In this document: positions 8,157-32,370 of the stretch, piece by piece | Position numbering within the stretch: the first letter of the stretch is position 1 | Layout: each line of letters begins with the position of its first letter | Source of the DNA: Nitrospirota bacterium | GTDB taxonomy: Bacteria > Nitrospirota > UBA9217 | Direction: 5' to 3' | DNA length: 61,543 nucleotides | Assembly (NCBI GenBank): GCA_029858565.1 | Contig: JAOUEV010000013.1 | Span: forward strand, 1-61,543 | Notes under the pieces: generated by a model | What the model saw: only the letters and a program-made list of their open reading frames with translations | What the model was told of the DNA's origin: nothing | Databases searched by the model: none | Translations under genes and position numbers: made by a program

Positions 8157-8161
8157 GCCGC

Positions 8162-9111: not shown

Positions 9112-9127
9112 AAATTAGCCGCACATT

Positions 9128-10057
9128 TTATTCAGCGCTAGAAACAGATTCCATTGCCCTTTCGAACAATTTGGAAAAAGCCTTCACTTTGGTTTTACCA
9201 GGGTCAATCTTATATTCAGCCTGCTTCCACTGCTCGCTATATTTATCCATCTTGATGCCCTTCGGCTGGTTCTTTTCGGCGACAGATTTCGGAAGTTTAA
9301 AAAAGAACGAGAAAGACTTTGACCCGATCCAGTGGATGCCAAACGCATTAAAGAAGCCGTGCTTAAAACCACAGTAGTTCTTGTTGTATTTCATCTCAAG
9401 AGGCCAGCCTTTCTTCTTGACTAGCTTTCCCGTTTCCTCGGCGTAAGCGAGAAAGGCCTTTACGCTATTCTTGTTTCGATATTTCTCGTAGAAAGCGCGA
9501 TCATAGGTTTCAAGTCCTTTAACGGCTGCGGTCTTTTTGCTCTGCTCGGGCTCAAGCTTGTTCACGAGCAAGAAATGATTTGATCCTTCAACCCACCGCT
9601 TTATTTCGATCAGATCGACCTTATAATTGATCGTATTAATGAGCTCCAGCGTCGAACGTTCAATTGATGGGGCAATAATTATGACCCGCACATCATAGTT
9701 GTCCCAATTGACCTCGACTTCATCTTCGCGGCGCGGGGCTTCAAGCCAGAGATTCTTGATGGAATCGGGATTTTTCTGAGCCCAAATACCATAAGCGAGC
9801 ACTTGCGGGATGATGGATGAATTGACGGACACATTCTTCATTTCGATGATACAAACATTGCCCTCGCTGTCTATTCCGATGATGTCGGGAATGCCGGCCT
9901 TTTTACCGCCACGTATTTGGCGCTTGATAAGGATAATATCTTCGAGAATTTCCTTTGATTCAAAGATTACTTTTTCGAAAGCCTCTTCTGTATCAAAAGG
10001 CGTCGAAAGCAAATTAAGCGTTTTGTTTCCCTTCCTCTTCCAGAATAGGTTTGCCAT
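9128..10057 (-). CDS. PD-(D/E)XK nuclease, DUF91/NucS-like
   Basis: The start at 10057 is preferred to the ATG at 10075 because GGAGG lies 4 bases upstream. The 309-residue product has a restriction-fold core with catalytic GIPDIIGIDSEGNVCIIEMKN (PD...ExK, about residues 75-95), followed by a QVLAYGIWAQ helix as in RecB/NucS-type nucleases. The C-terminal third, with YCGFKHGFFNAFGIHW and FFFKLPKS, resembles DUF5655-like modules. It follows the type III Res gene by 39 bases and probably belongs to the same transcript. It may be an accessory nuclease that cuts DNA handed over by the helicases; no specificity can be read from the sequence. Confidence 0.75.
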   Translation of the reverse strand: MANLFWKRKGNKTLNLLSTPFDTEEAFEKVIFESKEILEDIILIKRQIRGGKKAGIPDIIGIDSEGNVCIIEMKNVSVNSSIIPQVLAYGIWAQKNPDSIKNLWLEAPRREDEVEVNWDNYDVRVIIIAPSIERSTLELINTINYKVDLIEIKRWVEGSNHFLLVNKLEPEQSKKTAAVKGLETYDRAFYEKYRNKNSVKAFLAYAEETGKLVKKKGWPLEMKYNKNYCGFKHGFFNAFGIHWIGSKSFSFFFKLPKSVAEKNQPKGIKMDKYSEQWKQAEYKIDPGKTKVKAFSKLFERAMESVSSAE

Positions 10058-10096
10058 CTCGCCTCCATCGGCCATTGGACCACGGCCCGGGATCTC

Positions 10097-14391: not shown

Positions 14392-14401
14392 TTCTTTCGT
14401 T

Positions 14402-16156
14402 TTACGCCTTTACTTGACGTCTAAGATTTTCTACAGCGGCGCGAATAGCGTCAGCATTGGAACATTTTTCAGACCATTCACGCCAGAAGTTCTTTGTCAA
14501 GCTAAGTGGTGTCGCAACTGGTTTATCTAGCTTAATTCTTGAGGGAAGCAATATGGAGTCGCCGAGTACTATCGCCTCACCAATATCGAGAAGTGGCAGG
14601 ACATCGGCTATTCCCGCCATGCTATCGGGCATAACTGATTTCACCGCGGACTGATCCTGCTCATTTGTCAGCCGTAATGCGATAAAATTGTTACACTGAC
14701 TTAAGATTGTTCTGCTCACATCAGATGGGCGCTGGCTAACTACGAGTAGCGCAAAACCATACTTTCTACCTTCTTTGGCGATACGCTCAAAAGTATCAAG
14801 AGCGCGTTTTGATGCAGCATCTGCATCAGCACGAACAGGCAGGTAAAGGTGGGCTTCATCACAGACAAGACAAACCGGTGTTCTCGAAGATGCTTGCATC
14901 CAAAATTGAACATCATACAAAACGCGGGCAAAAACACTTACTACAGTCGGCAGGACATCGGCAGGAACTTCTGAGAAATCGACTACCTTAATGCCTGATG
15001 CGGTCGTGCATGTAGTAGACAGAAAAGTAACTGCCTGACCTTGAAGCCATGTGTAAACATTTGACTCTTTCGGAGGCTGAAACAGAAATCCATAACGGCG
15101 ATCTTCAATTTTAGCTCGCAACCGGCTGATGAAGCGGGTAAGCTTGCCATTCCACTCGCCCTTTCTATCCGTTCCAGCGCGCGCTCCAGGCTCTCGCTCA
15201 TTGTCGAGCCGATCCAATTCTGTTACGACCGAAGCAAGATCGTATGGGATTGGCGAATCAACTGTGAAAGTAGCTTCCACTTCTTTCATTTTCTCTTCCT
15301 GCAATCTCTTTCGCTTACTTTCACCGACCAATCCAGTGAAGATCATCGCTTGATTTGGTGCGTTCTGGTCTGTTCGGTCTAATAACATGGTAAGCATTTC
15401 ATCACGATTAAGAAGCCAGTATGGCAAAAAGAGACTTTCTGGTTTCGGTTTAGCCAAGTCTCCTGGTCCAGCTACCTTAAAATACGCGGCATAGCCATTC
15501 TTTTGTCCTTTCGCGAGAGAAGCATACTCACCATGCATATCGAGCAATATAATATTCGAGTGGTTTAGCGTATTAGCTCTTTCGAGGAGTGCCGCAACTG
15601 TATAACTTTTGCCACTCCCGGTACTCCCTAATATCGCGGCATGTCGTTGAAAAAATCTGTCACCATCGGCGACAGCCTGAGCAGTCGGATCTATTGCGAA
15701 GTGACCCAATTTTAGCGCTTTATCCGTGGGTACATCCTGAGACAATACTCCCATGAACGCAGTTAGATTAGTACCTTGAATAAGGTGAGCAGGCTGATCA
15801 ATCTGTGGACAAGAATCGGCACCGCGTTTGAATGATGGGCCACCAGCACCATCTTTTGATCTATATGTCCCAACGAGGACCGCTCTAATTGTATCCTGAA
15901 TCTCTTCTGCCTGAGGACCAGCTTCCTCTTCGGCTCCTTCAGTCGCGGCAAGTGAATCCGATGGTAGTCGTGTCACGCGTTCTACAATTGAGATCAGAAA
16001 CTGATGACCAGTAGCGCCTTGTATGGCTATCAGGTTTCCTACCATCACTTGCTTGAGTAGTTCGTGGTCGTCAACGTGGATAAATACTCGCATTGTATCT
16101 ACAGACATTACTCTTCCAATTGGTTCCGACTCAAAAGACATTGCTGCATTTGGCAT
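14402..16156 (-). CDS. HerA-like ATPase of a SIR2-HerA system
   Basis: HerA is a hexameric FtsK/VirD4-type DNA translocase. The 584-residue product has an N-terminal HAS-barrel-like domain (about 1-100), Walker A GSTGSGKS (about 177-184), Walker B VCLVCDEAH (about 420-430) and the arginine and sensor region near SQRPSDVSRTILSQCNNFIALRL. The start overlaps the SIR2 stop by one base (TAATG), which implies translational coupling. SIR2-HerA pairs are a known antiphage system in which the two form a complex that cuts nucleic acid and/or depletes NAD+. Its place between SIR2 and type III Mod is noteworthy. Confidence 0.88.
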   Translation of the reverse strand: MPNAAMSFESEPIGRVMSVDTMRVFIHVDDHELLKQVMVGNLIAIQGATGHQFLISIVERVTRLPSDSLAATEGAEEEAGPQAEEIQDTIRAVLVGTYRSKDGAGGPSFKRGADSCPQIDQPAHLIQGTNLTAFMGVLSQDVPTDKALKLGHFAIDPTAQAVADGDRFFQRHAAILGSTGSGKSYTVAALLERANTLNHSNIILLDMHGEYASLAKGQKNGYAAYFKVAGPGDLAKPKPESLFLPYWLLNRDEMLTMLLDRTDQNAPNQAMIFTGLVGESKRKRLQEEKMKEVEATFTVDSPIPYDLASVVTELDRLDNEREPGARAGTDRKGEWNGKLTRFISRLRAKIEDRRYGFLFQPPKESNVYTWLQGQAVTFLSTTCTTASGIKVVDFSEVPADVLPTVVSVFARVLYDVQFWMQASSRTPVCLVCDEAHLYLPVRADADAASKRALDTFERIAKEGRKYGFALLVVSQRPSDVSRTILSQCNNFIALRLTNEQDQSAVKSVMPDSMAGIADVLPLLDIGEAIVLGDSILLPSRIKLDKPVATPLSLTKNFWREWSEKCSNADAIRAAVENLRRQVKA

Positions 16157-17196
16157 TAGAGTACTCCTTTATTGAACCCTTCGAGGTTCCAGAGTTGATC
16201 GTCCACAACAAGTTCCTCTCCGCTAGACGTAATAATACGAGTCCGATAATCCGTCGCCGAAACTGAGGTTAACACAATAACTTCTGAGTCTTTGCTATTT
16301 TCAACTATTTTCATAGCATTGGTTGTTAGCTCCTTTGCTATGATAAGAGTAGGTTTTGTAAGCTTCAATCCGGGACAAACATATTGCTCTAAGTGGTCGT
16401 CGTTAAAACCATAGCCGATAAACATTAAACGAGTTGCATTAGTGGCCGCTTTATTACCCGAAGTTCGTTGTTCATCAAAAGCCCACCGAAAGCTCTCTCG
16501 GTACTTACTCGCGCCGGGAGTAATGATAAGTGGTGCTTTCCCTATATTCACTGGGCACCGCACTAGTTTGCCATCTACTTCAAACCAATCTAAGCTACCA
16601 TGTGGTTTATGTACACAAAGACACCGCAGGGGTCTAAACGCAGCATTTTTCCCAGCATAGTATGCTTCTCTATGAGCATCTGCTGCTTTTCTCGGATCTG
16701 AATGACCATGTAGGTAACCGGTAAACCTAGAATTGACTCCGACTTCAGCTGCTTCTGTTGCAAATTCAATTAAGCGATCATAGTTGGGTGTGATGAGATG
16801 AAACTGCTTACCGGCTCTCATAAGGTGTTTAATAAACGTAGTAAATGGTAGCTGTCGCTCCCCGTTTAATACACGCTTAAATACACTCTGCTCTGCTTCA
16901 AGAATCAAGTCCGTAGTAATGGATACGATTGACTCAACGGTCGTTGATTTCAACGTAACTTTTTCCATTGCAGCTTCAAGATGATCCCCAGCATCTAGAG
17001 ATGCCACAATGGCATCCCAACCGGAGTCTGGCTCTGTCAAGAGTTTCTTGGGCATTTCTGCCTTTAGATATGCTGCAAGTGTTCCCATCCCCGGAACACC
17101 TTCTGCGATTGAAAGACCAGTACCAACAACCATGAGCAAACCCTCTTGAAGATGGTCCTGGAGACTTCTCACAATTGTCGTAATTTCAAGTGGCAT
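16156..17196 (-). CDS. SIR2-family NADase-like protein
   Basis: The 346-residue product has the SIR2 fold motifs: VVGTGLS (GAGxS-like, residues 23-29), TPNYD (residues 136-140, the conserved Asn-Asp), the catalytic-type His199 in KPHGSLDWF, and GYGFNDDHLEQ near 265. The zinc knuckle of deacetylases is not evident, as in defence SIR2 proteins that consume NAD+ rather than deacetylate. It ends on the HerA start codon. In SIR2-HerA systems it supplies the toxic or nuclease activity on sensing phage DNA; that role here is inferred from the pairing. Confidence 0.85.
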   Translation of the reverse strand: MPLEITTIVRSLQDHLQEGLLMVVGTGLSIAEGVPGMGTLAAYLKAEMPKKLLTEPDSGWDAIVASLDAGDHLEAAMEKVTLKSTTVESIVSITTDLILEAEQSVFKRVLNGERQLPFTTFIKHLMRAGKQFHLITPNYDRLIEFATEAAEVGVNSRFTGYLHGHSDPRKAADAHREAYYAGKNAAFRPLRCLCVHKPHGSLDWFEVDGKLVRCPVNIGKAPLIITPGASKYRESFRWAFDEQRTSGNKAATNATRLMFIGYGFNDDHLEQYVCPGLKLTKPTLIIAKELTTNAMKIVENSKDSEVIVLTSVSATDYRTRIITSSGEELVVDDQLWNLEGFNKGVL

Positions 17197-17201
17197 ATTG
17201 C

Positions 17202-18476
17202 TTACGTAAGCTCCTCAGGAGCCTCTAAAGCGTTCAAGCTAAGGCCCTCTATCTCCTGTAAGGTTTTCCCCGCAATGCCCTGCAAGTCGCCGTACATACC
17301 GACGGTTGACTGCATTACTCTACCAATTTGTTCTTCACGCTTTGCCCACTGTTTTGTGATCGCCTTCTTCTCTTTATCAAGATCTTCTTGCATGGATGAA
17401 AACGCTTCCACAATAGCCTGGACTCGCTGACGGAACCGCGGCCCGGTGAGGTATTGATAGACCATCTCAGTCTTTGTCTGCTGGCCTTCAGTAGCTTTTC
17501 TTGCCGCAGCTACTTCGATAAGAGTCTGACGCAAAGTTATCGCCACGGGTAGTGCGGTTTTCGGAGGAGTAACCCATACGCCGTCAACCAGATCAAAAGA
17601 GGCTACGTCCTTCGGCAGTACCTGGCTGACAATCACCGCCATTTCTGCCTTCGCTGTCCGTTGGTCCTCTCGGAGCTTCGGAAGCCAGGTATCGCTCCAA
17701 TTTTTGGTTCGCTTTGATTCCCACAGAATCGTTCCGCACACCTGTCCAAGCGGTCCTACAACACGCTGCAATATATCGCCACCATGCTCTCCCTTGGGTA
17801 CCGGCTCAATGACATCCCGGGGGAATTTAGCCCGAAGCAGTCCTTCAAGCTCCAATTCCTGGACTTCCCCCTGGAGCTGCTGAGACCCTTGCTCTGCTCG
17901 CCGCTTAAGGTCTTCGATCTGTTTTTGCATAGAAGTGATGGTTTGCTCTTTTTCCATCACTTTCAGCTTCATCTGTTCTTCCGTTTCCTTGCGTGCCTGA
18001 TCACGGGTAGCAGTTAATCCCTCCTGGACACGCTTCTCAACGGTCAGCTCCATTTCTCTCTTGGCATCATCAAGCTCGCGCTGTTTGCGGATAAGATCAG
18101 CCTGAGCCTTCTGAGCCTCTCCAAGCTTTTCATTCTGTTGTTTAAGGATATCTTGAAGGTCGCAAACTTCCTTGTTCTTCTGCTCAAGGTCATTGCCTAT
18201 CGCAAGTTTTGCTTTTTTCGCCTCCTCTGAGGCGATCTTTATGCGTTCTTGCTTCAGTCTTTCCGCGATTTGGTCGTCAATGCTTTCCCTTGCCTTAGAA
18301 AGGGCTTCTTCTTTTTCACGAAGAGAAGACTCTCGTTTTTCAATGTCCGCATCCTTTTTAGCCAAGCGCTGCTCAAAATCCCGTCGAGTTGACTCGATCA
18401 ACGGAGCCGCAAGCGATTCGGTCAGCTTAATCTCAGCATTACACTTCGGACATTTGATTGTAGGTTCGGTACTCAT
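17202..18476 (-). CDS. DUF2130 protein with zinc motif, coiled coil and nuclease-like core
   Basis: The start at 18476 is set by GGGAG upstream. The product of about 424 residues begins with a CPKC zinc-ribbon half (only one Cys pair is visible), followed by a long Glu/Lys/Gln-rich coiled coil (about 25-215). The DUF2130 core follows, with GDILQRVVGP and ILWESKRTKNWSDTWLPKLREDQR. The D...ExK spacing there resembles a PD-(D/E)XK nuclease; this is an inference. The tail is again helical. DUF2130 proteins have no established function. Its position between a GHKL ATPase and SIR2, all on one strand with short gaps, argues for a shared defence task. Confidence 0.75.
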   Translation of the reverse strand: MSTEPTIKCPKCNAEIKLTESLAAPLIESTRRDFEQRLAKKDADIEKRESSLREKEEALSKARESIDDQIAERLKQERIKIASEEAKKAKLAIGNDLEQKNKEVCDLQDILKQQNEKLGEAQKAQADLIRKQRELDDAKREMELTVEKRVQEGLTATRDQARKETEEQMKLKVMEKEQTITSMQKQIEDLKRRAEQGSQQLQGEVQELELEGLLRAKFPRDVIEPVPKGEHGGDILQRVVGPLGQVCGTILWESKRTKNWSDTWLPKLREDQRTAKAEMAVIVSQVLPKDVASFDLVDGVWVTPPKTALPVAITLRQTLIEVAAARKATEGQQTKTEMVYQYLTGPRFRQRVQAIVEAFSSMQEDLDKEKKAITKQWAKREEQIGRVMQSTVGMYGDLQGIAGKTLQEIEGLSLNALEAPEELT

Positions 18477-18506
18477 ATTCTGCTCCCTAAACACACGACA
18501 ACATGC

Positions 18507-20264
18507 TTAACTTCTTTTCAGTTCCTGAATGAGCCAATCAAGTTGTTTCCGAGCGCCGCTCAGAATATCGTTGTACGTCACAATTTCAACGCCGGGCTCT
18601 TTGTATTGAGCGGATACTGTTGCCCCCTTTGTCCCTCCAATGATAAGGACATCGATCTGAGAGCTTATATGCGCTGATATCTCATGACGATATTTTGTCG
18701 CTTGCTGGTAGTCATTCAGCCCGATTTCATGTGATGGGCGTTTGAATTCTATAAGAAGATGCCTACTCAGCACATTGTTGACGAGAAGGAGATCTGGACG
18801 GTCTGACGGATCGCTCCCTTTGTATTTCTGACCGAGATACTCATCAACAACACGTCTGAGTGTTTTATTCGACGACATGAGGCTATACTCCGTCCCTATC
18901 ATCCAGAGACTGTTCTCGACGGCTTTATGCACCTGGTTTTCAAGCGTTGCTGGATCAGCAATTAATGCATCGACATAGTCGAGAAAATTAAGGCGCTGCG
19001 AAAGCTGTCTACTCATGATTGCCGTTTCCAATAATCCAAACTCTTCTAGCGCCGCAGCAAGGTGGGCCACATCCGTGTGACTAGCCTCGTCGATGTTTTC
19101 CAAGACAGCTCGGTACTCATCTCGCTCCATTGCATCGAGAACAACCGACACTATGGGTTCAACCCGATCTTCGCTCTCATTGTAAAACTTCTGAAGGATC
19201 CTCTTTATTGCTCGATCTGCGAACTCGCGCTTGTATTCAGGCAGAGCTTCAAGTCTCTTTTGGATTTTCTGCTTTAACCTGGCTTGAGCCAGGTGTATTT
19301 CCTGTCCGTAAACTTTCTTAACTTCGGCTCGCAGATGAGGAACTACCCATTCCTTAACAACATCAAAACCCTTGCTATTGTCAACAATAGCTGCCCAATC
19401 AGCTGTTATGTCGTTGGCCAATCCGTCGACTTCAATTTCGCCGTAAATCTTCCCGAGCAGCTTAGCAGGGAAATCGTCGGATTTATCCAGCCCAAAAAAG
19501 CGAGGTTTGCCAATCGACTTACCAGCTACGCGTACCACAATACCGGATCTCTTAATTTGCTTCCTGCCATCTGACACTGTAAAGCGAAGCTTAACAGGGC
19601 CGATACCGGGCAGGGTCACTTCATGCGTTATGGTCGGCCCAGACAAGTCCTCGATGTCCAGGGGCTTTTTATTCACTCGAATTGCAAAATCCGTCTCTCT
19701 GCCATAGTCATGAATTAATAATTCCCTGAATTTTTCCGGCATAGGGAAATTTAGTGCCTGATTCAGGTGAGAAAGTGTAATCACAGTACCGCAAAGATCA
19801 GCATTGCAGGGCGTCGAGATAACATCAATAGGAACGCGTTCTATGTCTTTGCCTGCCTCGATTAGCTTCTTTTTGTCAATGGTAATTGTCGTTGTATTAC
19901 CTCGTGCATTTGTTTGAAGCGACATCAGTTCTGCGGCCATAAGACCTGCAAATTTACCAATACCCTTACGCCCTTTAACAAGACGGTTTTTCCCTGACGT
20001 TCGATCACCTTTGCGGCTCCGACGGTCATTCGCGACAAAAAGATACTCCGCCCGCACTTCGCGCTCCGTCATACCAGTCCCGTTGTCCATAATAACAATA
20101 GGATCAGATGTATTCGGCGCCGGTAATGTAATCGATACCTCCGTGGCATCTGCGTCCCAGGCATTGTCTACCAGCTCCTTCAAAGCATCTTCAGTGGAAG
20201 AGTATGTTTCTCCCAGCAAGGATGCTAATCGCGAGTCAACTTGGAAGTGAGCCGCTTTCGTCAT
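18507..20264 (-). CDS. MORC-like GHKL ATPase fused to a PD-(D/E)XK nuclease
   Basis: The 585-residue product has a Bergerat-fold ATPase: N-box ELVDNAWDADA (about 30-40, Asn34), DNGTGM (60-65) and the lid GRKGIGKFAGL (98-108). The middle region (200-450) carries a transducer-like domain and helices. The C-terminus has RPDLLLVNNVLSRHLLIEFKRP (about 507-528), a D...ExK nuclease core. GHKL proteins of this MORC/MutL-like type are known from bacterial restriction neighbourhoods, often with SNF2 helicases, as here (the SNF2 gene ends 11 bases upstream). ATP-driven dimerisation on DNA coupled to cutting is the likely mode. Confidence 0.82.
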   Translation of the reverse strand: MTKAAHFQVDSRLASLLGETYSSTEDALKELVDNAWDADATEVSITLPAPNTSDPIVIMDNGTGMTEREVRAEYLFVANDRRSRKGDRTSGKNRLVKGRKGIGKFAGLMAAELMSLQTNARGNTTTITIDKKKLIEAGKDIERVPIDVISTPCNADLCGTVITLSHLNQALNFPMPEKFRELLIHDYGRETDFAIRVNKKPLDIEDLSGPTITHEVTLPGIGPVKLRFTVSDGRKQIKRSGIVVRVAGKSIGKPRFFGLDKSDDFPAKLLGKIYGEIEVDGLANDITADWAAIVDNSKGFDVVKEWVVPHLRAEVKKVYGQEIHLAQARLKQKIQKRLEALPEYKREFADRAIKRILQKFYNESEDRVEPIVSVVLDAMERDEYRAVLENIDEASHTDVAHLAAALEEFGLLETAIMSRQLSQRLNFLDYVDALIADPATLENQVHKAVENSLWMIGTEYSLMSSNKTLRRVVDEYLGQKYKGSDPSDRPDLLLVNNVLSRHLLIEFKRPSHEIGLNDYQQATKYRHEISAHISSQIDVLIIGGTKGATVSAQYKEPGVEIVTYNDILSGARKQLDWLIQELKRS

Positions 20265-20275
20265 ACGTTTTTACC

Positions 20276-23122
20276 TCAATTGAGTGTCCAGCGAAGACTG
20301 AACAGGTTTGCAGCCGATATAGTCTGGTTCAACTTTCCCTCTATCTCACCGATAAGTTTTTCTCTCTGGCGGTCAATCTCGTCCTGAGCTTCGAACAGCG
20401 ATTTCCTCTTCTGACTGCGTTGATGTTCAAGCGCCTTGATCTGTTTTTGCCCAACAAGCTTGTCCTCTAAGGTAAGCGCCGCCGTCGTTGCACGTCTGGT
20501 TTCCTTGATCTGTCGATCAATATCCTTTATCTCCCGCTCCAGCCCCACTTTGAGATCGTCCGCCCACCCGTCAAGCTTATCTGCTTCAACTTCAAAGAAT
20601 CGGGCATTTCTTTCAGATATGGTTTTCTGGATGGAGTTTTGCCTCGAGGCGATAATCGCTTGTAGTTTGTCATTATCAGGCATATATGTCAACAGGGGAA
20701 TGGCCTTTGCCGGCAAGGATAGTAGCCTTTGCGCCAGGTCCTCCTCCATAGTCTGTCCGTCATCAGTAATCGCCGCGCAGAGGATATGATCTTCTGCCTG
20801 ATCGAGTGATTCCACGGTAAAGAGCCTAAGAAGTAGTTCACCGCTGCGCCCAATATAGGGTTCCAGCATGCTAACCTTGCCCTCATGGCCCTTATAGTCA
20901 AAGGTGATCTCTGCTGCCTGCAGAATCCGGCTCTTTGCGCGTTCGAGGACCCCCGATGCGAGCGGATGAGTCAGACGGTACAGATGTGCCTCACCAGAGC
21001 GACGCGGTAGTTCATAGAGACCAAGGGGAATATCGTCGCCAAAAGGACTGGCCTTCAGCTGAAATGTCGACTCATCCAGGAACTCTGCATGATCCCGCAA
21101 CTCATAACGCGTAATCTGCATCAGCAGCCGCTCATAGCGGTTTAGATATTGCCTTGAGTTTTCATCGCTTACCCTAAGCTTTTCCCGCACCTCATCGTCG
21201 AAGTTTTCAAGCAGCTGTCTCCGAGTACGCGTCATCGCATCGTCGATCTGGAGGTTGAGCTCAAGCTGTAACTGGTCAAACGATGCCTTGATTTCCTCAG
21301 GAGTGCGACAGCGTTGATAGATGTCGGCGATTCTCTTTTCAAAGTCCACGCCGGATTCGATAGCCCCCAGGACCTCATCGCTTGCGCCGAACACGCCCTC
21401 GAAAAGCATGAACTTCTCGGAAAGGAGCTGGAACACCCGAAGATCAGCCTCGTTGTTCCGATTCAGAAAATTTACGACAACAACGTCGTGTTTCTGACCG
21501 TACCGGTGGCAGCGTCCGATGCGCTGCTCAATGCGCTGAGGATTCCAAGGCAGGTCATAGTTCACCACAAGGGAGCAGAACTGAAGGTTGATGCCCTCGG
21601 CGCCGGCTTCCGTGGCGATCATGATCCGCCCCTTTTCCCTGAAGTAATCAACCAGCGCCGACCGCATGTCCGCTGTGCGGGAGCCTGTGATTCGATCCGT
21701 TCCTTCGTGCTCCTTGAACCAGTCCTTGTAGATCTGGCGTGAACTGTCGTCGGTATTCGTCCCATTGAATAGAACGATACCTTCGCTCCAGGGGCTTTCT
21801 GCAAGTACGCGCAATAGGTAGGACTGGGTACGGCGGGATTCAGTGAAGATGATCGCCTTTTCCTCGGCACCGATCTCACGCGCCTTGGCAAAAGCGATTT
21901 CTAAAGCCTTAAGAAGCGCTCTTCCCTTTGCATTGTACTGGATAGATATTGCGAGCTGCCTAAAGCTTTCGAGATCTTTGATCTCGCGATCGATCGCTGC
22001 CAGATTTTCGGCAGACAATGGCGCATCTTGCTCTCCATCAGTCCATTCATCCGCTGTCTCACCAAGGGCTTCATACTCCTTGTCGAGTTCATCCGCCAAT
22101 GGCTCTTCCGGTTCCTGTTTTTTGAGGCGAAGGTGGAGACGCTTGCTCAGGGTTTCGAGCGAGCCAGCTATTGCAAATGATGAAGACGCGAGTATTTTGC
22201 GGAGGACCAGGGTCATAAGTGACCGCTGGCTCGTAGGCAAAGCCTGCAGATTGTCGCGACGGAGATAATCGGATACCAGATTATACAACCGATCTTCGCT
22301 CTCCTCAGGCGTAAAGGGCTGAACGATTGAATACCGTTGTGTAAACCGCACGTAGGGTAAGACTTGCCGTCGAAGGGTTCTATGGCAAATCGGCTTAAGC
22401 CTGGCCTTAAGTGCTGTGAACGTATTTTTATCACTCAAGTCAGAATACTGCTCCTTGAAACTCTTCAAATCGCCAAAAGTATGCTCATCGATGAATCCAA
22501 CCAGGCCATAGAGCTCCAGAAGTGAATTCTGAAGCGGCGTGGCTGTCAGTAGAAGCTTGGGTGCCTGCTTCAGCGCCTGCTTTAACGTATTAGCGATTAC
22601 ATTAGATGGCTTATAGACATTCCGCAAGCGGTGGGCTTCATCGATCACCACAAGATCCCAGGGAATGGCGTTCACATCCGCAGCTTTGCTCCGCGCAAAT
22701 TGATAGGAACAGATGACAAGCTTGCCTGACTCGAAGGGTCGGAAGTTGCCGTTCTTTATCGATTCGTTGAAGGACTTGCTTTCAAGGATGACGGACGGGA
22801 GGAAAAACTTCTCTTGAAGTTCCTGGTGCCATTGTTTGCGGAGGTTGGCTGGAGTGATTATGAGGATGCGCCGATGTCGTTCCGCCCAATGTTGGGAGAT
22901 GACCAGGCCCGCTTCGATGGTCTTTCCCAGGCCCACCTCGTCTGCCAGTATGCCACCTCGGGAAAGAGGGGACCGGAAAGCAAAGAGCGCAGCATCTACC
23001 TGGTGGGGATTGAGGTCGACCTGAGCATCAACCAAGGCGCCTGCAAGCTTCTCGATATTGTCAGAAGCGCAGCGTTTCGTCAGCTCGTACGCATAGTATT
23101 TGGCATGATAATCTGTGAGCAT
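20276..23122 (-). CDS. SNF2-family DNA translocase, first gene of the defence operon
   Basis: The protein of about 948 residues is a SWI2/SNF2 ATPase related to RapA/DISARM-type helicases. Visible motifs are LADEVGLGKTIEAG (I), VVIDEAHRLRN (II), LLTATPLQNS (III), ATEAGAEGINLQFC and IEQRIGRCHRYGQ (VI). The last 250 residues are largely coiled coil. The ATG at 23122 fits the family start better than the TTG at 23149, but no good ribosome binding site precedes it. It is first in the nine-gene operon and is expected to translocate on double-stranded DNA, perhaps loading the downstream ATPases and nucleases. No methyltransferase is fused. Confidence 0.85.
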   Translation of the reverse strand: MLTDYHAKYYAYELTKRCASDNIEKLAGALVDAQVDLNPHQVDAALFAFRSPLSRGGILADEVGLGKTIEAGLVISQHWAERHRRILIITPANLRKQWHQELQEKFFLPSVILESKSFNESIKNGNFRPFESGKLVICSYQFARSKAADVNAIPWDLVVIDEAHRLRNVYKPSNVIANTLKQALKQAPKLLLTATPLQNSLLELYGLVGFIDEHTFGDLKSFKEQYSDLSDKNTFTALKARLKPICHRTLRRQVLPYVRFTQRYSIVQPFTPEESEDRLYNLVSDYLRRDNLQALPTSQRSLMTLVLRKILASSSFAIAGSLETLSKRLHLRLKKQEPEEPLADELDKEYEALGETADEWTDGEQDAPLSAENLAAIDREIKDLESFRQLAISIQYNAKGRALLKALEIAFAKAREIGAEEKAIIFTESRRTQSYLLRVLAESPWSEGIVLFNGTNTDDSSRQIYKDWFKEHEGTDRITGSRTADMRSALVDYFREKGRIMIATEAGAEGINLQFCSLVVNYDLPWNPQRIEQRIGRCHRYGQKHDVVVVNFLNRNNEADLRVFQLLSEKFMLFEGVFGASDEVLGAIESGVDFEKRIADIYQRCRTPEEIKASFDQLQLELNLQIDDAMTRTRRQLLENFDDEVREKLRVSDENSRQYLNRYERLLMQITRYELRDHAEFLDESTFQLKASPFGDDIPLGLYELPRRSGEAHLYRLTHPLASGVLERAKSRILQAAEITFDYKGHEGKVSMLEPYIGRSGELLLRLFTVESLDQAEDHILCAAITDDGQTMEEDLAQRLLSLPAKAIPLLTYMPDNDKLQAIIASRQNSIQKTISERNARFFEVEADKLDGWADDLKVGLEREIKDIDRQIKETRRATTAALTLEDKLVGQKQIKALEHQRSQKRKSLFEAQDEIDRQREKLIGEIEGKLNQTISAANLFSLRWTLN

Positions 23123-23149
23123 TCCTAATATATTGCAAAGAACGGTCAA

Positions 23150-24659: not shown

Positions 24660-25133
24660 TCATTTATCGAGTCCCTTTTTTCCATATATAATTCTTATTT
24701 TGCGTTTTGCAATATCCAGTTCTCCTCGGAGAACTTTGACTTCATGGTCGAGAGCATCACGGCAAGCGATGACTTCTTTTATTCTTTGACGCTCATTATC
24801 AAGCCGCTGCTCAGTTCTCAACAACCTTTTTGCAAGGTCATCGTTTTGACGCAGCAATTCATTAAATCTGTTTTCATCATAGACAATACTGCTTCGCAGA
24901 GACGATACCAGTATCTCCTTTGCACCAATACCAAACCGTTTAAGCAGAAATTCTTTTACATGCTGCTTACAAAACGTGGACGCAGCTAAACCAGATGTTT
25001 CTGCGATTCTCGACCGAGTGATAATACGACCTTCCGTCTTTAATAAAGAGACAGCAGCTTCTATTTTCTTATAAGTTTTCTCTCTATGGGCTTGCTGTAC
25101 CTCTTGGAGTTTCAGTGGTATTTTCCTAGGCAT
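24660..25133 (-). CDS. TnpC-like coiled-coil protein (DUF6262 type)
   Basis: The start at 25133 overlaps the stop of the preceding recombinase gene and has GGGAGG upstream. The product of about 157 residues has an N-terminal helical, HTH-like part (about 15-75; IEAAVSLLKTEGRIITRSRIAETSGLAASTFCK) and a long coiled coil (about 85-150). In Tn554, TnpC is a small third protein that affects transposition efficiency and orientation; this protein matches in size class, coiled coil and position after the recombinases. DNA binding is inferred. It is the last gene of the five-gene recombinase operon. Confidence 0.7.
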   Translation of the reverse strand: MPRKIPLKLQEVQQAHREKTYKKIEAAVSLLKTEGRIITRSRIAETSGLAASTFCKQHVKEFLLKRFGIGAKEILVSSLRSSIVYDENRFNELLRQNDDLAKRLLRTEQRLDNERQRIKEVIACRDALDHEVKVLRGELDIAKRKIRIIYGKKGLDK

Positions 25134-26730
25134 CGTCTCCTCCCTGTTCTTTAGACGCATTCATTACCATGCTGAGACTGATCTTATCAACTTGACTTTG
25201 AAAGAGGTTAGACATGCCTTGTGCATGCTCAGCCAAGCTCTTATTGCCCTTCTCGAGATGGAGGGAAGCACGTTCAAGCCATATGGCACACTGTTCCATG
25301 TAATAATCCTTGTTTTCAGCATCAGGAACAAGGAAGTCGCAATCAAGACACTCAAAAAGGTCACCTTTACATGAGGTGATGTCTGAGCAGATGCCTAATT
25401 TTCCAATGCGGTATGCTCTAGGGTTCCGAAGCAGTTTCATTTCTTTTTCGGGGGACAGATTCAGGATTCTTCCTCTAAACAGAATTGGCGTTCCTAGCTC
25501 ACCTCTTGCGCGTTTTTTTGCTGCAAGAGCTTTAACTTCCTTGCCCTTAACGTGCACGTAGGATGTATCAATAATCATCTCGTTGCCCTTATGCCCTGAC
25601 ATGTCACGTATTTCGACATAGCTAAATCCTTCATAGAGACGCTCCGTGATACCGTTGTGCCGAAAACAATGTGTAATGGCATCATAATATCCACCGTTTT
25701 CATCACATACGTTGAAATACTCTGAAACCTTCTTCATGCGCGTCCGCACGACAGGTCCCGTCAACACGAACGGACCAGTCAGGTTGTTATAAGAAGACCT
25801 ACAAGCCATCTTTCCATCCTTATACCGCGCTGACATCCTTTTATAAGGGGAAACCATTAAATATCCTTGAGACTCATCCGAAAGTTCGATTTGAAGATTA
25901 GTCGATACTCTTTGCTGTTCTTTTACCAGATCGAGTAAGAACTTTCCATGTCCCTTGTCGAGAATATGGATAAGCTTACTTTGCGGTTCGCGCAACTGGG
26001 CTGACGGTTTGTATTGAGGAATAGTTAAGACATAACCGTCTCTATATGGCCGAATACAACTAAGTTTGATAGATGTTATTTCCTGAACACGCGAGGGGAT
26101 ACTTCGAAGAATCCAATATATAAGTCGGTCCTCTAGAGGAAGATTGCTATTACGATAGATACGATCAAGTTGATCAAGGACGATGTCCGGAACAAGTCGT
26201 TCATTGTGCTGACGATCTAATTCGCTTCGGATAAACGGATTACCAGGTGCTACAGGATAATTAATGGGCATTTGCGGCCATGTTTGCATATCCTTGAAGA
26301 AGTTTGCCATTGCAGTCCAATAGATCTCTTTGGAAGCTTTCTTAATATCAGCACGTTCGTAGAGGCTTTCCTCATAAGCCTCAATAGTCATTCTGTTAAC
26401 ATCCGATAAATCTGGGGCACCGCATTCTTTTTCAAGAAAGATCAAAAAGTGGGCAATACCACTGACATTTAATGCCTGCGTATGTACAGCAATACCATTT
26501 CGGATCCTCAATATAACCCAGTAGCGAACTATTTCGCTGTATACCTCCGGGACACTCGCAAAGTAAATCTTGTAATCGTCGCTACTATGCCCCGCTGAGC
26601 GTTTGATAACATCAAAGAACCATATCCCATCATTAAAAGACGAGACAGTCGTTACTGAGGTCATAAAATTTCTTAGTTCTTCCTGGATATCAAAGGTAAA
26701 CTCGTCTGCAATTGCAATGTTTGGAAGCAT
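25126..26730 (-). CDS. Tyrosine recombinase, third of three
   Basis: The 534-residue protein has an N-terminal SAM-like core-binding part (about 60-150) and a C-terminal catalytic domain with Arg in SIPSRVQEI, HCFRHNG (His-x-x-Arg), His in SGHKG and the nucleophile Tyr in DTSYVHV. A C-terminal tail with several Cys (CSDITSCKGDLFECLDC and a later Cys) may form a zinc ribbon. It follows the cargo rtcB by 9 bases. With the other two recombinases it should carry out strand exchange at the island ends. Tn554 uses two recombinases plus TnpC; a third one recalls recombinase-in-trio elements. Confidence 0.85.
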   Translation of the reverse strand: MLPNIAIADEFTFDIQEELRNFMTSVTTVSSFNDGIWFFDVIKRSAGHSSDDYKIYFASVPEVYSEIVRYWVILRIRNGIAVHTQALNVSGIAHFLIFLEKECGAPDLSDVNRMTIEAYEESLYERADIKKASKEIYWTAMANFFKDMQTWPQMPINYPVAPGNPFIRSELDRQHNERLVPDIVLDQLDRIYRNSNLPLEDRLIYWILRSIPSRVQEITSIKLSCIRPYRDGYVLTIPQYKPSAQLREPQSKLIHILDKGHGKFLLDLVKEQQRVSTNLQIELSDESQGYLMVSPYKRMSARYKDGKMACRSSYNNLTGPFVLTGPVVRTRMKKVSEYFNVCDENGGYYDAITHCFRHNGITERLYEGFSYVEIRDMSGHKGNEMIIDTSYVHVKGKEVKALAAKKRARGELGTPILFRGRILNLSPEKEMKLLRNPRAYRIGKLGICSDITSCKGDLFECLDCDFLVPDAENKDYYMEQCAIWLERASLHLEKGNKSLAEHAQGMSNLFQSQVDKISLSMVMNASKEQGGDDA

Positions 26731-26739
26731 TCTGATATC

Positions 26740-27894
26740 CTAGCCCTTAATAACACCAAGAGGATCGAGTTTAACAATAATATCTACAAGGTCAGCCTGA
26801 GACGCTATCACAATATCAATATCCTTGTAAGCTCCATCCGCCTCATCTAAATCTCTAACTCCTCGAACAGCATGTATGATACCCTTATCGTCCAAACGCT
26901 TCTTTTCCTCTTCAAGATTCAATGTTCTCTCTGCTTGTTTGCGACCCATTTTTCGGCCTGCTCCATGAGAGCAGGATTGGAAACTTTCACTATTGCCTTT
27001 GCCGCGCACGATATAGCTAGCCGTCCCCTGCGATCCAGGTATAATACCAATTTCACCATCACGAGCAGATGTTGCACCCTTGCGGTGGACAATGACGTTC
27101 TTCCCAAAGTGGCTTTCCAACTTTGCGTAATTGTGCGCAATGTTTATCATTTCATCGAAAGTGCCACCCGTAGTATCGTAGACTATCTCAGCAATTCGGT
27201 TCATCATCAGCTTTCTATTAGCAAGAGCAAAATCAACCGAATATGTCATTCCGATTTGGTATGCCTGACCTATCGCACTATTTATCGGTAGTGATGCAAG
27301 ATCCCACGCCTTTGGTACAGATATGCGCATCCGATCATTAAGCTCAACAGCCTTCCTGTTGTAGAAATCAGCTACCTGTTTTCCGAGGTTTCGACTTCCG
27401 GAATGAACCATAACCCAGATATGCCCATCACTTCCCATAGAAAACTGAATGAAATGATTTCCGCTGCCCAATGTCCCAATCTGATGAAGAGCATGACCGT
27501 ATTCACGATCAACAATAATATCCGTATTGCCAGCAGGCATCAATACGGGATCCTGTCTATCTCGGTGCCTATTCATCCCAACAGGAATCCGCCTCCTGAT
27601 CTCACCAATTATCTTTTTTAATGCATCAACAGATATTTCATGCAGCGATGTCTTTGCTGCGCACATTCCACAACCGATGTCAACACCAACAGCATTCGGA
27701 ACGATCACGTCTTCAGTAGCCATAACTCCACCAATTGGCATCCCATAACCTTGGTGAGCATCAGCCATGAGAGAAATATGACGAAATGCAAACGGAAGAC
27801 GTGCAAGATTTCTAGCTTGTTCAAGTGCCCCAACTTCAAGCACATCACTCCAACTCTTGATCATCAAACCGCCTTCGACTTTGATTATCTTCAT
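26740..27894 (-). CDS. Complete second RtcB RNA ligase carried by the island
   Basis: The product of about 384 residues is the short E. coli-like type of RtcB, unlike the long host gene. All signature segments are present: DAHQGYGMPIGG, the metal-site Cys in GVDIGCGM, GTLGSGNHFIQ, VHSGSRNLG, the HNYAK and HRKGATSA His residues, and SHGAGRKMGR with the His that accepts GMP. The start at 27894 has GGAG 6 bases upstream. It lies between recombinase genes in the same operon, 30 bases after the second recombinase. It can be expected to seal 2',3'-cyclic phosphate/5'-OH RNA ends and could replace the host rtcB that the island breaks. Archease, the usual partner of many RtcBs, is intact next to the host fragment. 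Confidence 0.92.
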   Translation of the reverse strand: MKIIKVEGGLMIKSWSDVLEVGALEQARNLARLPFAFRHISLMADAHQGYGMPIGGVMATEDVIVPNAVGVDIGCGMCAAKTSLHEISVDALKKIIGEIRRRIPVGMNRHRDRQDPVLMPAGNTDIIVDREYGHALHQIGTLGSGNHFIQFSMGSDGHIWVMVHSGSRNLGKQVADFYNRKAVELNDRMRISVPKAWDLASLPINSAIGQAYQIGMTYSVDFALANRKLMMNRIAEIVYDTTGGTFDEMINIAHNYAKLESHFGKNVIVHRKGATSARDGEIGIIPGSQGTASYIVRGKGNSESFQSCSHGAGRKMGRKQAERTLNLEEEKKRLDDKGIIHAVRGVRDLDEADGAYKDIDIVIASQADLVDIIVKLDPLGVIKG

Positions 27895-27924: not shown

Positions 27925-29949
27925 TTAATTACTGCACTCATCTAATATCTTATTTAGGGCAGCACCATATTCGGCGAGCAACTTCTCCGCTTTTTGATAT
28001 TCGCGATAGAATCGGTATTCCTCTTCAGATATCCCAGACTTTTTATATACTGCTATAAACTCAGCAACTTCACGTTTTTGCGATTCGAAGAGAAGTCTCC
28101 ACTTCGCTTCATATTTCGGGCCTGTACAGAGGTAGGTACATATAGCACAATTAGTTCTTCCAACTCTTTTTCCACAGGGCCCTTCGCTTGCATGTTTTAT
28201 GCACTGTCCTAGTTCAACTTCTCGCTCTCCCAAGGCAAACTCGGCATACAGGACTTTACGTTCTTCTTCGCTAAATTGACTTAAGTGCTCTTCAGATATC
28301 TTTGTCATAAATTTCTTTTCAAAGAACTCATGGTTCATAGTAGCCAAATTCATTTTACGAACTTCAGCATACACACTATCTGTTGTCCTCTGACTAAGGT
28401 GGCCGAGAAACTGTCTTACTTCAATCGGAGATGCTTTATTTTCGACCATGTTCACCGCGACAGTTTTACGACATTGGTGCGAATTAAAATCCCAGATATT
28501 TCCATCATGATCCGTAATAGAATGTTTAGCAATAAGCATGCGAACTGGCAGTGTAAATCCTGTCGCACTAAGCACACTAATCTTACTCGTATAATCTGTT
28601 GTCTTTCTAAGAAAGATAAGTTTAGATTGTGCCAGTAACCGGAGATCAGCTGTCAGCCGTTCCTGTGCATGAATTGCATTGACCACGTCAAGATCTTTCA
28701 CTCCTATTTCATGATAGTCGGGAAGCCCTCTTTTGCGACGTTTCTTTAATATTTTAGGAGACACGAATCTAAGTATATGCATTCCAAGATCATCGTCATA
28801 CGTCAAACACCCTTCTTCAAGAAGAGATGCTTCCTGGTAGCGTAAACCTTGCCCCATCATGATTACTAAGCAGTTGCATACATCGTCGGGCAATTCCAGG
28901 CGATGTAGCAGTAGTTGTTCTACAACCTCCTCAGCAATGTATTGAGCTGAGTCATAATAGTCTTGCATGTTCTTAAAGCTAACACTTCTGAAAGGATTAG
29001 TTGAGATTGTCGGCTGTTCATTGAGCACTTTCTCTTCAAGTTGTATTAAGTAGTCCCACATTTGATTTAAAACCTTAAAATGGCCACGGATTGAAGCCAT
29101 CTTTAATTTTTTACCCTTGTACGATGTTGCCTCATAGGACAGATAGTTTAAGAGCTTTCTGACGTCAGTTATTGAGACAGCCGCAGGATAACTTACTCCG
29201 GCATTCTCCGACAAAAAATTGAGCGCTCTAGCTACCATACCGACAATATTATTGCTCCGGAAGCTATCAACTTTCTTAAACCACCTTTTTTTAGCAAGGT
29301 ACCGTTTGAATGCTATCTTGAAATGATGATTCCTTATTACCGAAAAATCAAAAGTTGCACTCTGCAGACTAGTTTCAGCATTAGTCCAGAAAACAGTCCA
29401 TAGATCTAGATCCAGTCGCATCGCATCGCTATTTGATAATGGCAACACCACGCGCTGCTTCCTTTCTTCATCGCCAATCACTTCATAAATGCACTTCATA
29501 TGCTTACGATAATCATCCCAGCTATCATCGTTAGCACCTGCCCGATAGGATTGAGCTGCCGCATTGAATACAGCATTGAAGAAAGAAGCTTCTCTGATGA
29601 TTATTCTTTTTTTCGTTAGTAGCGATGCTTGGCGCGACAAGTAATTGCGGAACGCAACTGGCCATAATGTAAAACCGACCCTGATAATTTTCGTTATACC
29701 GAAGCGCCGTCCTATTAAATCATGAATCGGCTCATCAGTTTCCAATCGGTCTTTCATAGCAAATAACAAATCTCTATAGATAGGCCCTATACTGCGTTCG
29801 TGACTTTTAATGAGCAGCAAAAATAAATCTTCCTCATTAAAATGATCCAGCGTTTCGAGACGTGAGAATGATTTGCACAGCTTATATATTGGCTGGCTCC
29901 TTCCTCCCCAATGTTTTGATTTATTTTTAACGATATCCAAATTGTTCAT
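27925..29949 (-). CDS. Tyrosine recombinase, second of three (TnpB-like)
   Basis: The 674-residue protein is close in size to TnpB of Tn554 (about 630). The catalytic set is visible: Arg in GQGLRYQEASLL, HQCRKTV (His-x-x-Arg), LGHLS and the Tyr in DSVYAEV. A Cys-rich tail (GPCGKRVGRTNCAICTYLC) and a final helical stretch follow. Its start overlaps the first recombinase stop by 4 bp (ATGA), so synthesis is coupled. It should act with the first and third recombinases to insert and excise the island at the 6-nt core. Confidence 0.88.
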   Translation of the reverse strand: MNNLDIVKNKSKHWGGRSQPIYKLCKSFSRLETLDHFNEEDLFLLLIKSHERSIGPIYRDLLFAMKDRLETDEPIHDLIGRRFGITKIIRVGFTLWPVAFRNYLSRQASLLTKKRIIIREASFFNAVFNAAAQSYRAGANDDSWDDYRKHMKCIYEVIGDEERKQRVVLPLSNSDAMRLDLDLWTVFWTNAETSLQSATFDFSVIRNHHFKIAFKRYLAKKRWFKKVDSFRSNNIVGMVARALNFLSENAGVSYPAAVSITDVRKLLNYLSYEATSYKGKKLKMASIRGHFKVLNQMWDYLIQLEEKVLNEQPTISTNPFRSVSFKNMQDYYDSAQYIAEEVVEQLLLHRLELPDDVCNCLVIMMGQGLRYQEASLLEEGCLTYDDDLGMHILRFVSPKILKKRRKRGLPDYHEIGVKDLDVVNAIHAQERLTADLRLLAQSKLIFLRKTTDYTSKISVLSATGFTLPVRMLIAKHSITDHDGNIWDFNSHQCRKTVAVNMVENKASPIEVRQFLGHLSQRTTDSVYAEVRKMNLATMNHEFFEKKFMTKISEEHLSQFSEEERKVLYAEFALGEREVELGQCIKHASEGPCGKRVGRTNCAICTYLCTGPKYEAKWRLLFESQKREVAEFIAVYKKSGISEEEYRFYREYQKAEKLLAEYGAALNKILDECSN

Positions 29950-31112
29950 TTACTTCTCGATTCCATATTGACGCGCCTACGAGCCTTTTCTGCAGCGTTT
30001 TTAATAATTACCTTACTTCGCAGATTTCTGTAATTCTCTAATGGCGCAAGTGATGCCCACCCAACCAGTTGGCGAATAGTTTCATGATTTTCGCCAGCTT
30101 CAAGCAAGCCCTGAACAAAAGTTCGCCTACCAACATGTGTTGCTACTTCAGAAGAATCAATCCCTGTTTTCTCTACGGCCGTCTTCAGAACACCCCACCA
30201 GTTCCGATATTTCACTGCCTTGCCGTAAGAGTTCTGACGTTTTTTAAGATTTAGAAACATCCACTCGAGATAATCACCAAGATCACTCTCGACATCAGCC
30301 CGTTCTGTTGTGATGTACTTATCAAGAAAGTGACCTGTTCGTATGTCGTGAAAGGCGACAGTACGTATTAAATCTTCTTCTGTACTGGGACGACCTTTTG
30401 AGCGTGAAGGTTTGAGTGTCAGCTCTCCTGCATTATACGATGAATACTTAACGCTAAGAACTTCGTCGATACGCATACCTTCACATAGCAGCATAAATAT
30501 TGATTTATCTCTTACTGTGTTAAATTGTTCAAGAATAGTCGTTATCTCTGAATTTGTAAGCCAATGTTTCTTATATCCAGATGGCTTGAGTCTCATGTGT
30601 TCAATATCGATAAACTCATCAGCTGACTTATCGTAAATCATGCCATATTTAAAACCTCGAGATGCTTTAAACCGTACTCTCGACTTCTTTTTTGCCGATG
30701 TCTGCGGTGAATAAATGCTAACGTATCCATCAAACCATCGATAGAATTCCTGAATCGCAGTGATTGTGCCAACGAGAGTCCGAAAGGTAATGTCGGAGTT
30801 GATTTTCAGCACCGTTTTATTACTGTGTAATCCGTATGCGATGTAATCTTTGAATGTTTCGAGATCAGCAACAGTCGCATCAAAATATTCTGTCTTGTGC
30901 ATATGAAGATAATTTAACCATGAGGCTAAACTGTAAGCATAAGTTCTCCCAGTTCCTGCAGAATTGGCGCTCTTCCTGTCTAAGAATTGATTTACAGAGT
31001 CAACTGGTAAAAAATCACGATATATATACCACCGCTGTAGATAACCATTTCTTTTTTTAGGGAGAAGGGCCTCCTTAACCAAATAGGTTGAAACTGTTAA
31101 CTGTCTACCCAA
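29946..31112 (-). CDS. Tyrosine recombinase, first of three (TnpA-like)
   Basis: The 388-residue protein is similar in size to TnpA of Tn554 (361). It has an N-terminal core-binding domain (about 30-130) and a catalytic domain with Arg in GMRIDEVLS, HVGRRTF (His-x-x-Arg), Trp in VGWAS and the nucleophile Tyr in LENYRNL. It is the first gene of the recombinase operon, 156 bases from the right island end. A terminator at 31187-31216 shields it from rtcB transcription, so its promoter must lie between about 31113 and 31190. Confidence 0.88.
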   Translation of the reverse strand: MGRQLTVSTYLVKEALLPKKRNGYLQRWYIYRDFLPVDSVNQFLDRKSANSAGTGRTYAYSLASWLNYLHMHKTEYFDATVADLETFKDYIAYGLHSNKTVLKINSDITFRTLVGTITAIQEFYRWFDGYVSIYSPQTSAKKKSRVRFKASRGFKYGMIYDKSADEFIDIEHMRLKPSGYKKHWLTNSEITTILEQFNTVRDKSIFMLLCEGMRIDEVLSVKYSSYNAGELTLKPSRSKGRPSTEEDLIRTVAFHDIRTGHFLDKYITTERADVESDLGDYLEWMFLNLKKRQNSYGKAVKYRNWWGVLKTAVEKTGIDSSEVATHVGRRTFVQGLLEAGENHETIRQLVGWASLAPLENYRNLRSKVIIKNAAEKARRRVNMESRSK

Positions 31113-31186: not shown

Positions 31187-31216
31187 CAAAAAAAAGACCA
31201 TTAAATTAATGGTCTT
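31187..31216 (-). terminator. Intrinsic terminator at the right end of the island
   Basis: The stem AAGACCATTAA/TTAATGGTCTT (31194-31204 with 31206-31216) is followed on the minus strand by a run of T (31187-31193). It would stop transcripts entering from the broken rtcB before the recombinase operon. Confidence 0.85.
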
Positions 31217-31268: not shown

Positions 31269-31269
31269 C

Positions 31270-31869
31270 CGAGCCCAGTGTGCCCATTTCCCGATGCTGT
31301 CGCTTTTTGGCCGTGTCGGAAACCGCATCCGGATCAGCCCCTTCCACCCGGCCGTGGTTCTCTATATACTCCAGGTCCTCGGATACACCATATCCCCTCT
31401 TTACAGCCCACTCGGCCCCGCCCATCAGCATTTCGTCAATCTGAGCGCTGTTCAGCGCAATGAGACCTTCCGATCCGACCCCCGCAGGAATGCGGTTATA
31501 GAACTGGTCCACGAGCCGTTCCAGCTTTGGTGCGATCGCTTCCAGCGACATGCCTGTTTTCATGGTCCTGACCCCGCAGGAAATGTCGAAACCCACCCCT
31601 CCCATGGAAATGATACCCCCCTCTTCGGGATCGAATGCTGCGACCCCCCCGATGGGGAAACCATAGCCCCAGTGAGCGTCAGGCATTGCCATTGATGCAA
31701 GCTGTATTCCGGGAAGCATCGCAACGTTCGTGATCTGCTCCCGTACTTTTTCGTCCATTTCCAGGACAAGTTTTTCCGATGCAAAGATCCTCCCGGGCAC
31801 CCGCATATCGCCGGTCCTGGGAATCTCCCAGAGATGTTCGTTGATCTTGTCCAGTACTCGGATATCCAT
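31270..31869 (-). pseudogene. rtcB: rtcB 5' fragment, RNA ligase cut by island
   Basis: This is the first part of the host rtcB, ending after GTLGS. It contains MPDAHWGYGFPIGG, the metal-site Cys in GVGFDISCGVR, and KKRQHREMGTLGS. Beyond base 31270 the frame runs five codons into island DNA (VFFSF) and stops at 31252. The start at 31869 (ATG, MDIRVL) fits family starts; a TTG at 31887 is an alternative. A truncated product of about 205 residues could be made but lacks most metal ligands and the GMP-accepting His. The 3' part lies at 7326-8156. Archease lies immediately upstream in the same direction. Confidence 0.93.
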
Positions 31870-31953
31870 ATTTGAAAACTTACTCAAAGACCTGTGCGTT
31901 GATTAGAACGATCCAATCTCCCGATGTCTGCACAATACCCCGATGGCTTATGT

Positions 31954-32370
31954 TCAAACATCTACCACACATTCCGCAGAGTAGCCCCCGTTCCGTTCTA
32001 CCACCGATAGCATGTGATAGGTGGCCCCTTTTACTTCCACATGGGCATCATGCTTCTCGCGGTCCAGAGGCTCACCCCAGACAATGCCTCTCAATCTGCA
32101 TCCGTCGATAATGACTTGGAACCGGGAGAATACCAGACGCTCTATATCTGAGAGCGCGAGCAGGCCATTCAGCCACTCGACCAGCAGCAATTCCCTGTCC
32201 GGCGCCTCAACTTCCACTTCCCTGCAAACAATGGGAGTTACGCGGGAGAGATTTACCATAACTGAATAGAGTGCCATTGCTGCATGTGCGAATGCTTCCT
32301 CAACAGTCGCACCATTCCCCCGGATTCCAATATCGGCCTCATGTTCGAATGTCTCGTATGCTATCATCAT
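31954..32370 (-). CDS. Archease, RtcB activating protein
   Basis: Archease speeds RtcB guanylation and multiple turnover. The product of about 138 residues has the family pattern: YETFEHEADIGIRGNGATVEEAFAHAAMALYSVMV at the N-terminus, with Asp/His metal ligands, then LLVEWLNGLLAL, and a C-terminal KGATYHMLSV segment. It is the usual rtcB neighbour and is transcribed toward the broken gene, 84 bases before the ATG. Starts at 32370 and 32367 (two adjacent ATG) are both possible; AGGA is just upstream. With rtcB interrupted, it may serve the island RtcB. Confidence 0.88.
   Translation of the reverse strand: MMIAYETFEHEADIGIRGNGATVEEAFAHAAMALYSVMVNLSRVTPIVCREVEVEAPDRELLLVEWLNGLLALSDIERLVFSRFQVIIDGCRLRGIVWGEPLDREKHDAHVEVKGATYHMLSVVERNGGYSAECVVDV

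Follow-up and report, generated by a model that had tools for sequence, protein, structure and literature searches.

An island inserted in the catalytic codons of a Nitrospirota rtcB gene may bring its own replacement

The window described here is the whole 61,543-nucleotide stretch of contig JAOUEV010000013.1 from a Nitrospirota bacterium. Within it, the host gene encoding RtcB is interrupted by a mobile island, and a second, complete rtcB gene lies inside the island among recombinase genes. A search for PF01139 across all 144 contigs of the genome (completeness 100) found RtcB sequence in the window only, with matches spanning 7329-8159 (C-terminal piece of the host gene), 26743-27819 (within the complete short gene) and 31270-31737 (N-terminal piece). 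The features of the locus are listed below by position.

7326 to 8155, minus strand: C-terminal piece of the host long-type rtcB (PF01139 search and rejoined alignment)
8156 to 8161, minus strand: six non-host bases, GCGGCG, at the cargo end, a putative footprint (junction reading and rejoined host gene)
About 8162 to 31268, strand not given: mobile island of 23.1 kb, GInt/SE/Tn554-like (gapless host gene from the rejoined flanks, mirrored ends, lower GC)
8587 to 23149, minus strand: cargo with GIY-YIG, PDC-S18 candidate, type III REase and MTase, HerA, SIR2, DUF2130, HATPase and DrmD-like SNF2 helicase
24660 to 25160, minus strand: ginD/TnpC-like protein of up to 166 aa (below-cut-off DUF6262 hit, E 1.1e-4; local match to TnpC of Tn554)
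25126 to 26730, minus strand: ginC-like tyrosine recombinase of 534 aa that retains its catalytic residues (PF00589 weak, below cut-off; phrog_1 integrase, E 3.8e-11)
26740 to 27894, minus strand: complete short-type rtcB, 384 aa (PF01139, E 1.4e-107 over the full length; PHROG tRNA splicing ligase)
27925 to 29949, minus strand: ginB-like tyrosine recombinase, 674 aa, relative of Tn554 TnpB (PF00589, E 1.1e-8)
29946 to 31112, minus strand: ginA-like tyrosine recombinase of 388 aa with a complete catalytic set (PF00589, E 9.7e-15; motif alignment)
31194 to 31216, minus strand: terminator-like hairpin with T-run, after the host stump and before ginA (folding z -2.87)
31269 to 31887, minus strand: N-terminal piece of the host long-type rtcB, including the 6-bp host crossover GCTCGG at 31269-31274
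31954 to 32370, minus strand: archease gene of the host, partner of the interrupted rtcB and upstream of it (PF01951, E 8.5e-44)

When the two host pieces are rejoined in silico, they form an uninterrupted protein of 482 aa that aligns without gaps to intact rtcB of genomes of the same family (81% identity over 477 aa) and is 77% identical to that of a genome of the same genus. The cut falls within the codons of the catalytic motif GSGNH, which holds Asn202 and His203 in P. horikoshii RtcB numbering. The N-terminal piece is without Asn202, His203, His234, His329 and His404, and the C-terminal piece is without Asp95 and Cys98. Because the catalytic residues are divided between the two, either piece by itself should be inactive. 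The preliminary description, which had the long-type gene of the host cut, is therefore borne out. No further decay is present in the pieces; the insertion may thus be young, and long-term upkeep is unproven. In the host's family, genomes have an rtcB of the long type, nearly always as one match among the matches listed. Across the phylum, 59 of 396 genomes have no RtcB match, so the cost of losing RtcB may be mild in this host.

Many full-length long-type rtcB genes in the host's phylum contain exactly one in-frame TGA (examples are L202, L209, L217 and L224, as well as G177:C4:57272-58576, G106:C14 and G329:C4). In the four genes that were read, the TGA falls at the metal-binding Cys, Cys98 of P. 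horikoshii, in the context GYDIN-TGA-GVRL, and the TGA-bearing proteins are probably selenoproteins. Split rtcB genes elsewhere in the phylum were also considered as possible insertions; among the matches listed, the partial ones inspected proved to be contig ends, a frameshift or an archease-fused deletion. In the last of these (L231, G258:C24, 16945-18109), the gene right behind archease is an rtcB without its first half, which starts near the same GSGNH motif. It is a deletion or an assembly error, and an insert is absent.

The island has a lower GC content than its flanks. Its ends, read inward from the host, are TTTTCTTTAGTTTTTAATTACGATAT and TTTTATTTAGTAATTATAATTCACGATAT, and they share a mirrored TTTTxTTTAGT. 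The ungapped inverted match between them is weak (13/20, shuffle p 0.04), and it is made more convincing by paired subterminal ACGATAT sites, which occur twice per end, 15-16 bp apart and in mirrored orientation (8184, 8199, 31249 and 31233). If the element is taken to start at TTTT on both sides, six bases are left over at each junction. At the recombinase end these are GCTCGG, which is host sequence. At the cargo end they are the non-host GCGGCG, which read in frame would form part of a Gly-Gly-Gly-Asn-His motif and which, among the fetched rtcB loci, stands in this register in 26 of 161 short-type motifs versus 1 of 58 long-type ones. SE and Tn554-type elements carry along 6 bp of their previous site as a footprint (PMC10214605). 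GCGGCG is accordingly read only as a hint that the island may have stayed earlier in another rtcB, one of the GGGNH type. The junctions, inspected for direct imperfect repeats of 10-17 nt such as flank GInts, share few bases around the 6-bp crossover. Scans with Rfam and for tRNA genes gave no match within the island. At the edge of the window, positions 1-86 of the minus strand give a partial match to group II intron D1-D4-3 that is cut by the window start.

On the minus strand, the recombinase operon reads ginA (388 aa), ginB (674), rtcB (384), ginC (534) and ginD (up to 166, or about 157 aa if translation begins at an internal start, which has a good ribosome site). Genes ginA and ginB overlap by 4 nt, ginC and ginD also overlap, and rtcB is set between ginB and ginC with gaps of 30 and 9 nt, the former holding a GGAG ribosome site ahead of rtcB. 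An earlier claim that a complete RtcB sits inside the recombinase operon is in this way confirmed. The island rtcB has a GC3 of 0.38; the gin genes lie at 0.35-0.42 and the host rtcB at 0.61-0.64. By motif alignment, R, HxxR, H/W and Y are present in all three of GinA, GinB and GinC, with ginC reading SRVQE at the position of the first catalytic arginine. GinA, GinB and GinD match TnpA, TnpB and TnpC of Tn554 with E values of 1.6e-10, 1.5e-17 and 7e-6, respectively. Since the strong hairpin and T-run stand before ginA, they would block transcription from a host promoter, and the island rtcB presumably depends on a promoter of the element. In a promoter consensus scan of the element, none stood out.

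Two sets of comparable operons help to place the island rtcB. An element from the same phylum that likewise has three recombinases (L270, G385:C24:30000-42855) has genes that overlap throughout, with no rtcB and nothing between the recombinases, and the Tn554-family operons that were read (Escherichia, Exiguobacterium and Peribacillus plasmids) are also without an extra gene. On this basis, the island rtcB is an addition to the gin operon, and a tightly fitted one. The question raised earlier of whether other such elements carry rtcB is therefore answered in the negative for these operons. No close relative emerged when viral contigs were searched with GinA, GinB and GinC (also by alignment), when part of GinB was compared with 85k genomes, when GinC was compared with plasmids and phages, or when GinA and GinB were run against the 396 genomes of the phylum and GinC against the class. 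Among the closest ~160 rtcB loci, none lies beside such recombinases, the only matches there being weak and XerC/D-like; no recombinase operon beside rtcB was found in plasmid rtcB contexts, and the searches for relatives found no other related element that carries rtcB.

Two of the elements encountered in these searches have features of their own. The protein encoded by the second gene of L270 no longer has its catalytic residues, a trait of SE elements too (intA-tfp-intB-srap). SEs have been described from Gammaproteobacteria, and L270 falls outside that group. The recombinases closest to those of the window are GinA- and GinB-like proteins, 31-35% identical, encoded in MT839389.1 (1-4320; L249), a sequence from human faeces labelled 'Bacteriophage sp.' whose phage nature is not obvious. 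They adjoin a gene for a likely DNA cytosine methyltransferase, which is perhaps their target.

Turning to the island RtcB, its catalytic positions were checked by alignment to P. horikoshii RtcB and solved RtcB structures. Asp95, Cys98, Asn202, His203, His234 and His329 of the P. horikoshii enzyme correspond to D72, C75, N146, H147, H164 and H254, and the guanylated His404 corresponds to H310. The HRKGAT and C-terminal VxKG motifs are kept as well. The metal and guanylation residues reported from first inspection are thus conserved at every catalytic position checked, while the label 'E. coli-like' holds for the length of the protein but not for its sequence, which is about 36% identical to E. 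coli RtcB. Identity to the host RtcB is about 31%. The closest relatives, with identities of 60-67%, are found in phage contigs, Desulfobulbales, Bacteroidota, Acidobacteriota and Omnitrophota. In a tree, the protein falls near L073, a phage contig, and near L091, a gene from Bacteroidetes, where local support is only modest. Genes for RtcB are common among phages. The island protein belongs to the same family as the short-type RtcBs of phages, Desulfobulbales and Bacteroidota and has the same full catalytic set; unlike them, it is encoded within a recombinase operon and reads GSGNH where they read GGGNH (159 of 161 short-type relatives, with Ser in none of the 161). According to a review (PMC10630183), E. 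coli RtcB works without archease. If the island enzyme resembles it in this respect, an archease-free ligase would suit an element that hops between hosts.

The best reading of the locus, and a reasonably probable one, is that of an island that targets rtcB and supplies a substitute for it. A site-specific element of the GInt/SE/Tn554 kind, equipped with three recombinases, would recombine into rtcB at its conserved GSGNH codons, and the host would lose its archease-linked long-type RtcB. The foreign full-length short-type gene, carried in one operon with the recombinases, would supply an enzyme that takes over the joining of 3'-phosphate and 5'-hydroxyl RNA ends and so lowers the cost of insertion. 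This reading supposes that the island RtcB is made, is active and suffices in the host, that it has been kept for that reason, and that rtcB is a regular target. It is favored because the only host copy is lost and the island gene is the only intact one in a genome scored 100% complete, because family genomes have a long-type rtcB as a nearly always single match among the matches listed, and because the host gene splits cleanly and is gapless on rejoining. Further arguments come from the retention of all checked catalytic residues; from the wiring of rtcB into the recombinase operon, outside the cargo and with a GC3 like that of the gin genes; from the compared three-recombinase element and Tn554-family operons, which have no gene at that place; from the cargo-end footprint, which fits a previous GGGNH rtcB; and from a published precedent of the same principle in recA (PMC4405046). 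The main weakness is that this is a single case, with no second element showing recurrence. Compensation of the insertion cost, as the preliminary description proposed, accordingly draws strength from the only intact rtcB, its residues and its operon place, but as a single case it is unproven.

An element could also have acquired rtcB, perhaps from a phage, and have met rtcB as its target by chance, with no compensating role for the gene. Phage contigs among the nearest RtcB relatives, the frequency of rtcB in phages and the single known case all suit such a coincidence. It is nevertheless judged unlikely: by our estimate, the chance that one of the ~17 island genes is a homologue of the target is <1%, and rtcB lies within the recombinase operon rather than the cargo and has a composition common to the gin genes. 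The cargo at 8587-23149 is a dense defence block, all on one strand, and it had been suggested earlier that RNA repair helps the defence genes. In that case RtcB would heal RNA that is cleaved by ribotoxins or when phages attack. Short RtcBs that act in repair are known, and RtcB2-PrfH acts against colicin E3 damage (PMC9223846). The rtcB gene, however, is outside the defence block, neither prfH nor a recognised RNA-cutting enzyme is present in the island, and the choice of rtcB itself as the target is left unexplained; the suggestion finds no backing here and appears quite improbable.

The position of rtcB between recombinase genes could point instead to the recombination machinery, where RtcB would cap or rejoin 3'-phosphate/5'-OH DNA ends from failed tyrosine-recombinase reactions. 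This is chemically possible, as RtcB caps DNA 3'-phosphates (PMC4499129). In its fullest form, this idea makes RtcB a functional component of the recombination module and has the element target rtcB because it both needs and supplies the activity; if true, RtcB would for the first time have a role at DNA ends in transposition. A minimal GInt nevertheless needs no more than the four gin genes (PMC5385486), and comparable elements do without rtcB, which leaves such a role very improbable. Equally little credence is given to the view that the island motif has been altered against self-insertion. It carries Ser (AGC) at the position where 159 of 161 relatives have Gly, and 7 of 18 bases differ between the island motif TTGGGCAGCGGAAATCAT and the host target CTGGGCTCGGGTAACCAC, in line with the differences at several bases noted in the preliminary description. 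Protection does not follow: against the footprint GCGGCG, the island bases GCAGCG are identical at 5 of 6 positions and the host bases GCTCGG at 3 of 6 (for the presumed 6-bp crossover), so the island is nearer to the footprint than the host is. A single base change also accounts for the Ser, which occurs in long-type enzymes as well.

Conserved catalytic codons offer many hosts at the risk of weakening them, and a divergent substitute in the recombinase operon would make such targeting safe and tie the host to the element. Loss of the island by deletion, as opposed to precise excision, would leave a cell without RtcB. The arrangement would also provide a route by which a distant short-type RtcB replaces the native long, archease-linked one, and it suggests asking whether such elements encode the protein whose gene they interrupt.

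Among known systems, the island resembles the GInt/Tn6571-type elements (Bardaji 2017, PMC5385486) in its three recombinase genes and TnpC-like gene at one end, its large cargo, which includes genes for restriction and defence, and its AT-rich other end, a likeness of architecture. It differs from them in having rtcB between ginB and ginC, and thus an extra gene inside ginABCD; in cutting its target mid-gene, where described GInts lie at gene ends or between genes; and in a ginC that keeps the first catalytic arginine absent from GInt GinC. With the Tn554 family it shares homologues of TnpA, TnpB and TnpC in the order of GinA, GinB and GinD, insertion in a conserved gene and imperfect inverted ends. 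That family, however, has two recombinases and targets radC, whereas the window island, at 22-33% identity and about 23 kb, has three, targets rtcB and carries that gene in addition. SEs (PMC10214605) are similar in the mirrored ends and the pairing of one ordinary with one large recombinase, and the six non-host bases at the cargo end would resemble their footprint at one junction if the ends are taken at TTTT, but their order is intA-tfp-intB-srap with a non-catalytic Tfp, and all three recombinases of the window look catalytic. A literature search combining rtcB, tyrosine recombinase and genomic island found no publication among the papers available, and rtcB is unmentioned in the GInt paper (PMC5385486), the SE paper (PMC10214605) and the E. 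coli defence-island paper.

The closest parallel in principle is the RME of V. cholerae S24 (Rapa 2014, PMC4405046), likewise a one-site island that disrupts a conserved gene and carries a complete divergent copy of it. The same combination is found in the window, where the target is disrupted and the copy is 31% identical. The target of the RME is recA and that of the window island is rtcB; the RME has a phage-type integrase and a XerS-like gene in place of a gin operon, and its recA and integrase occupy opposite ends, whereas the rtcB of the window is inside the recombinase operon. Mobility and protection were demonstrated by experiment for the RME (PMC4405046), and the window island is known from its sequence. 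The principle of breaking and replacing a gene is therefore known from recA in V. cholerae, to which rtcB would add a further target; the target gene, the class of element and the position of the replacement in the recombinase operon are new.
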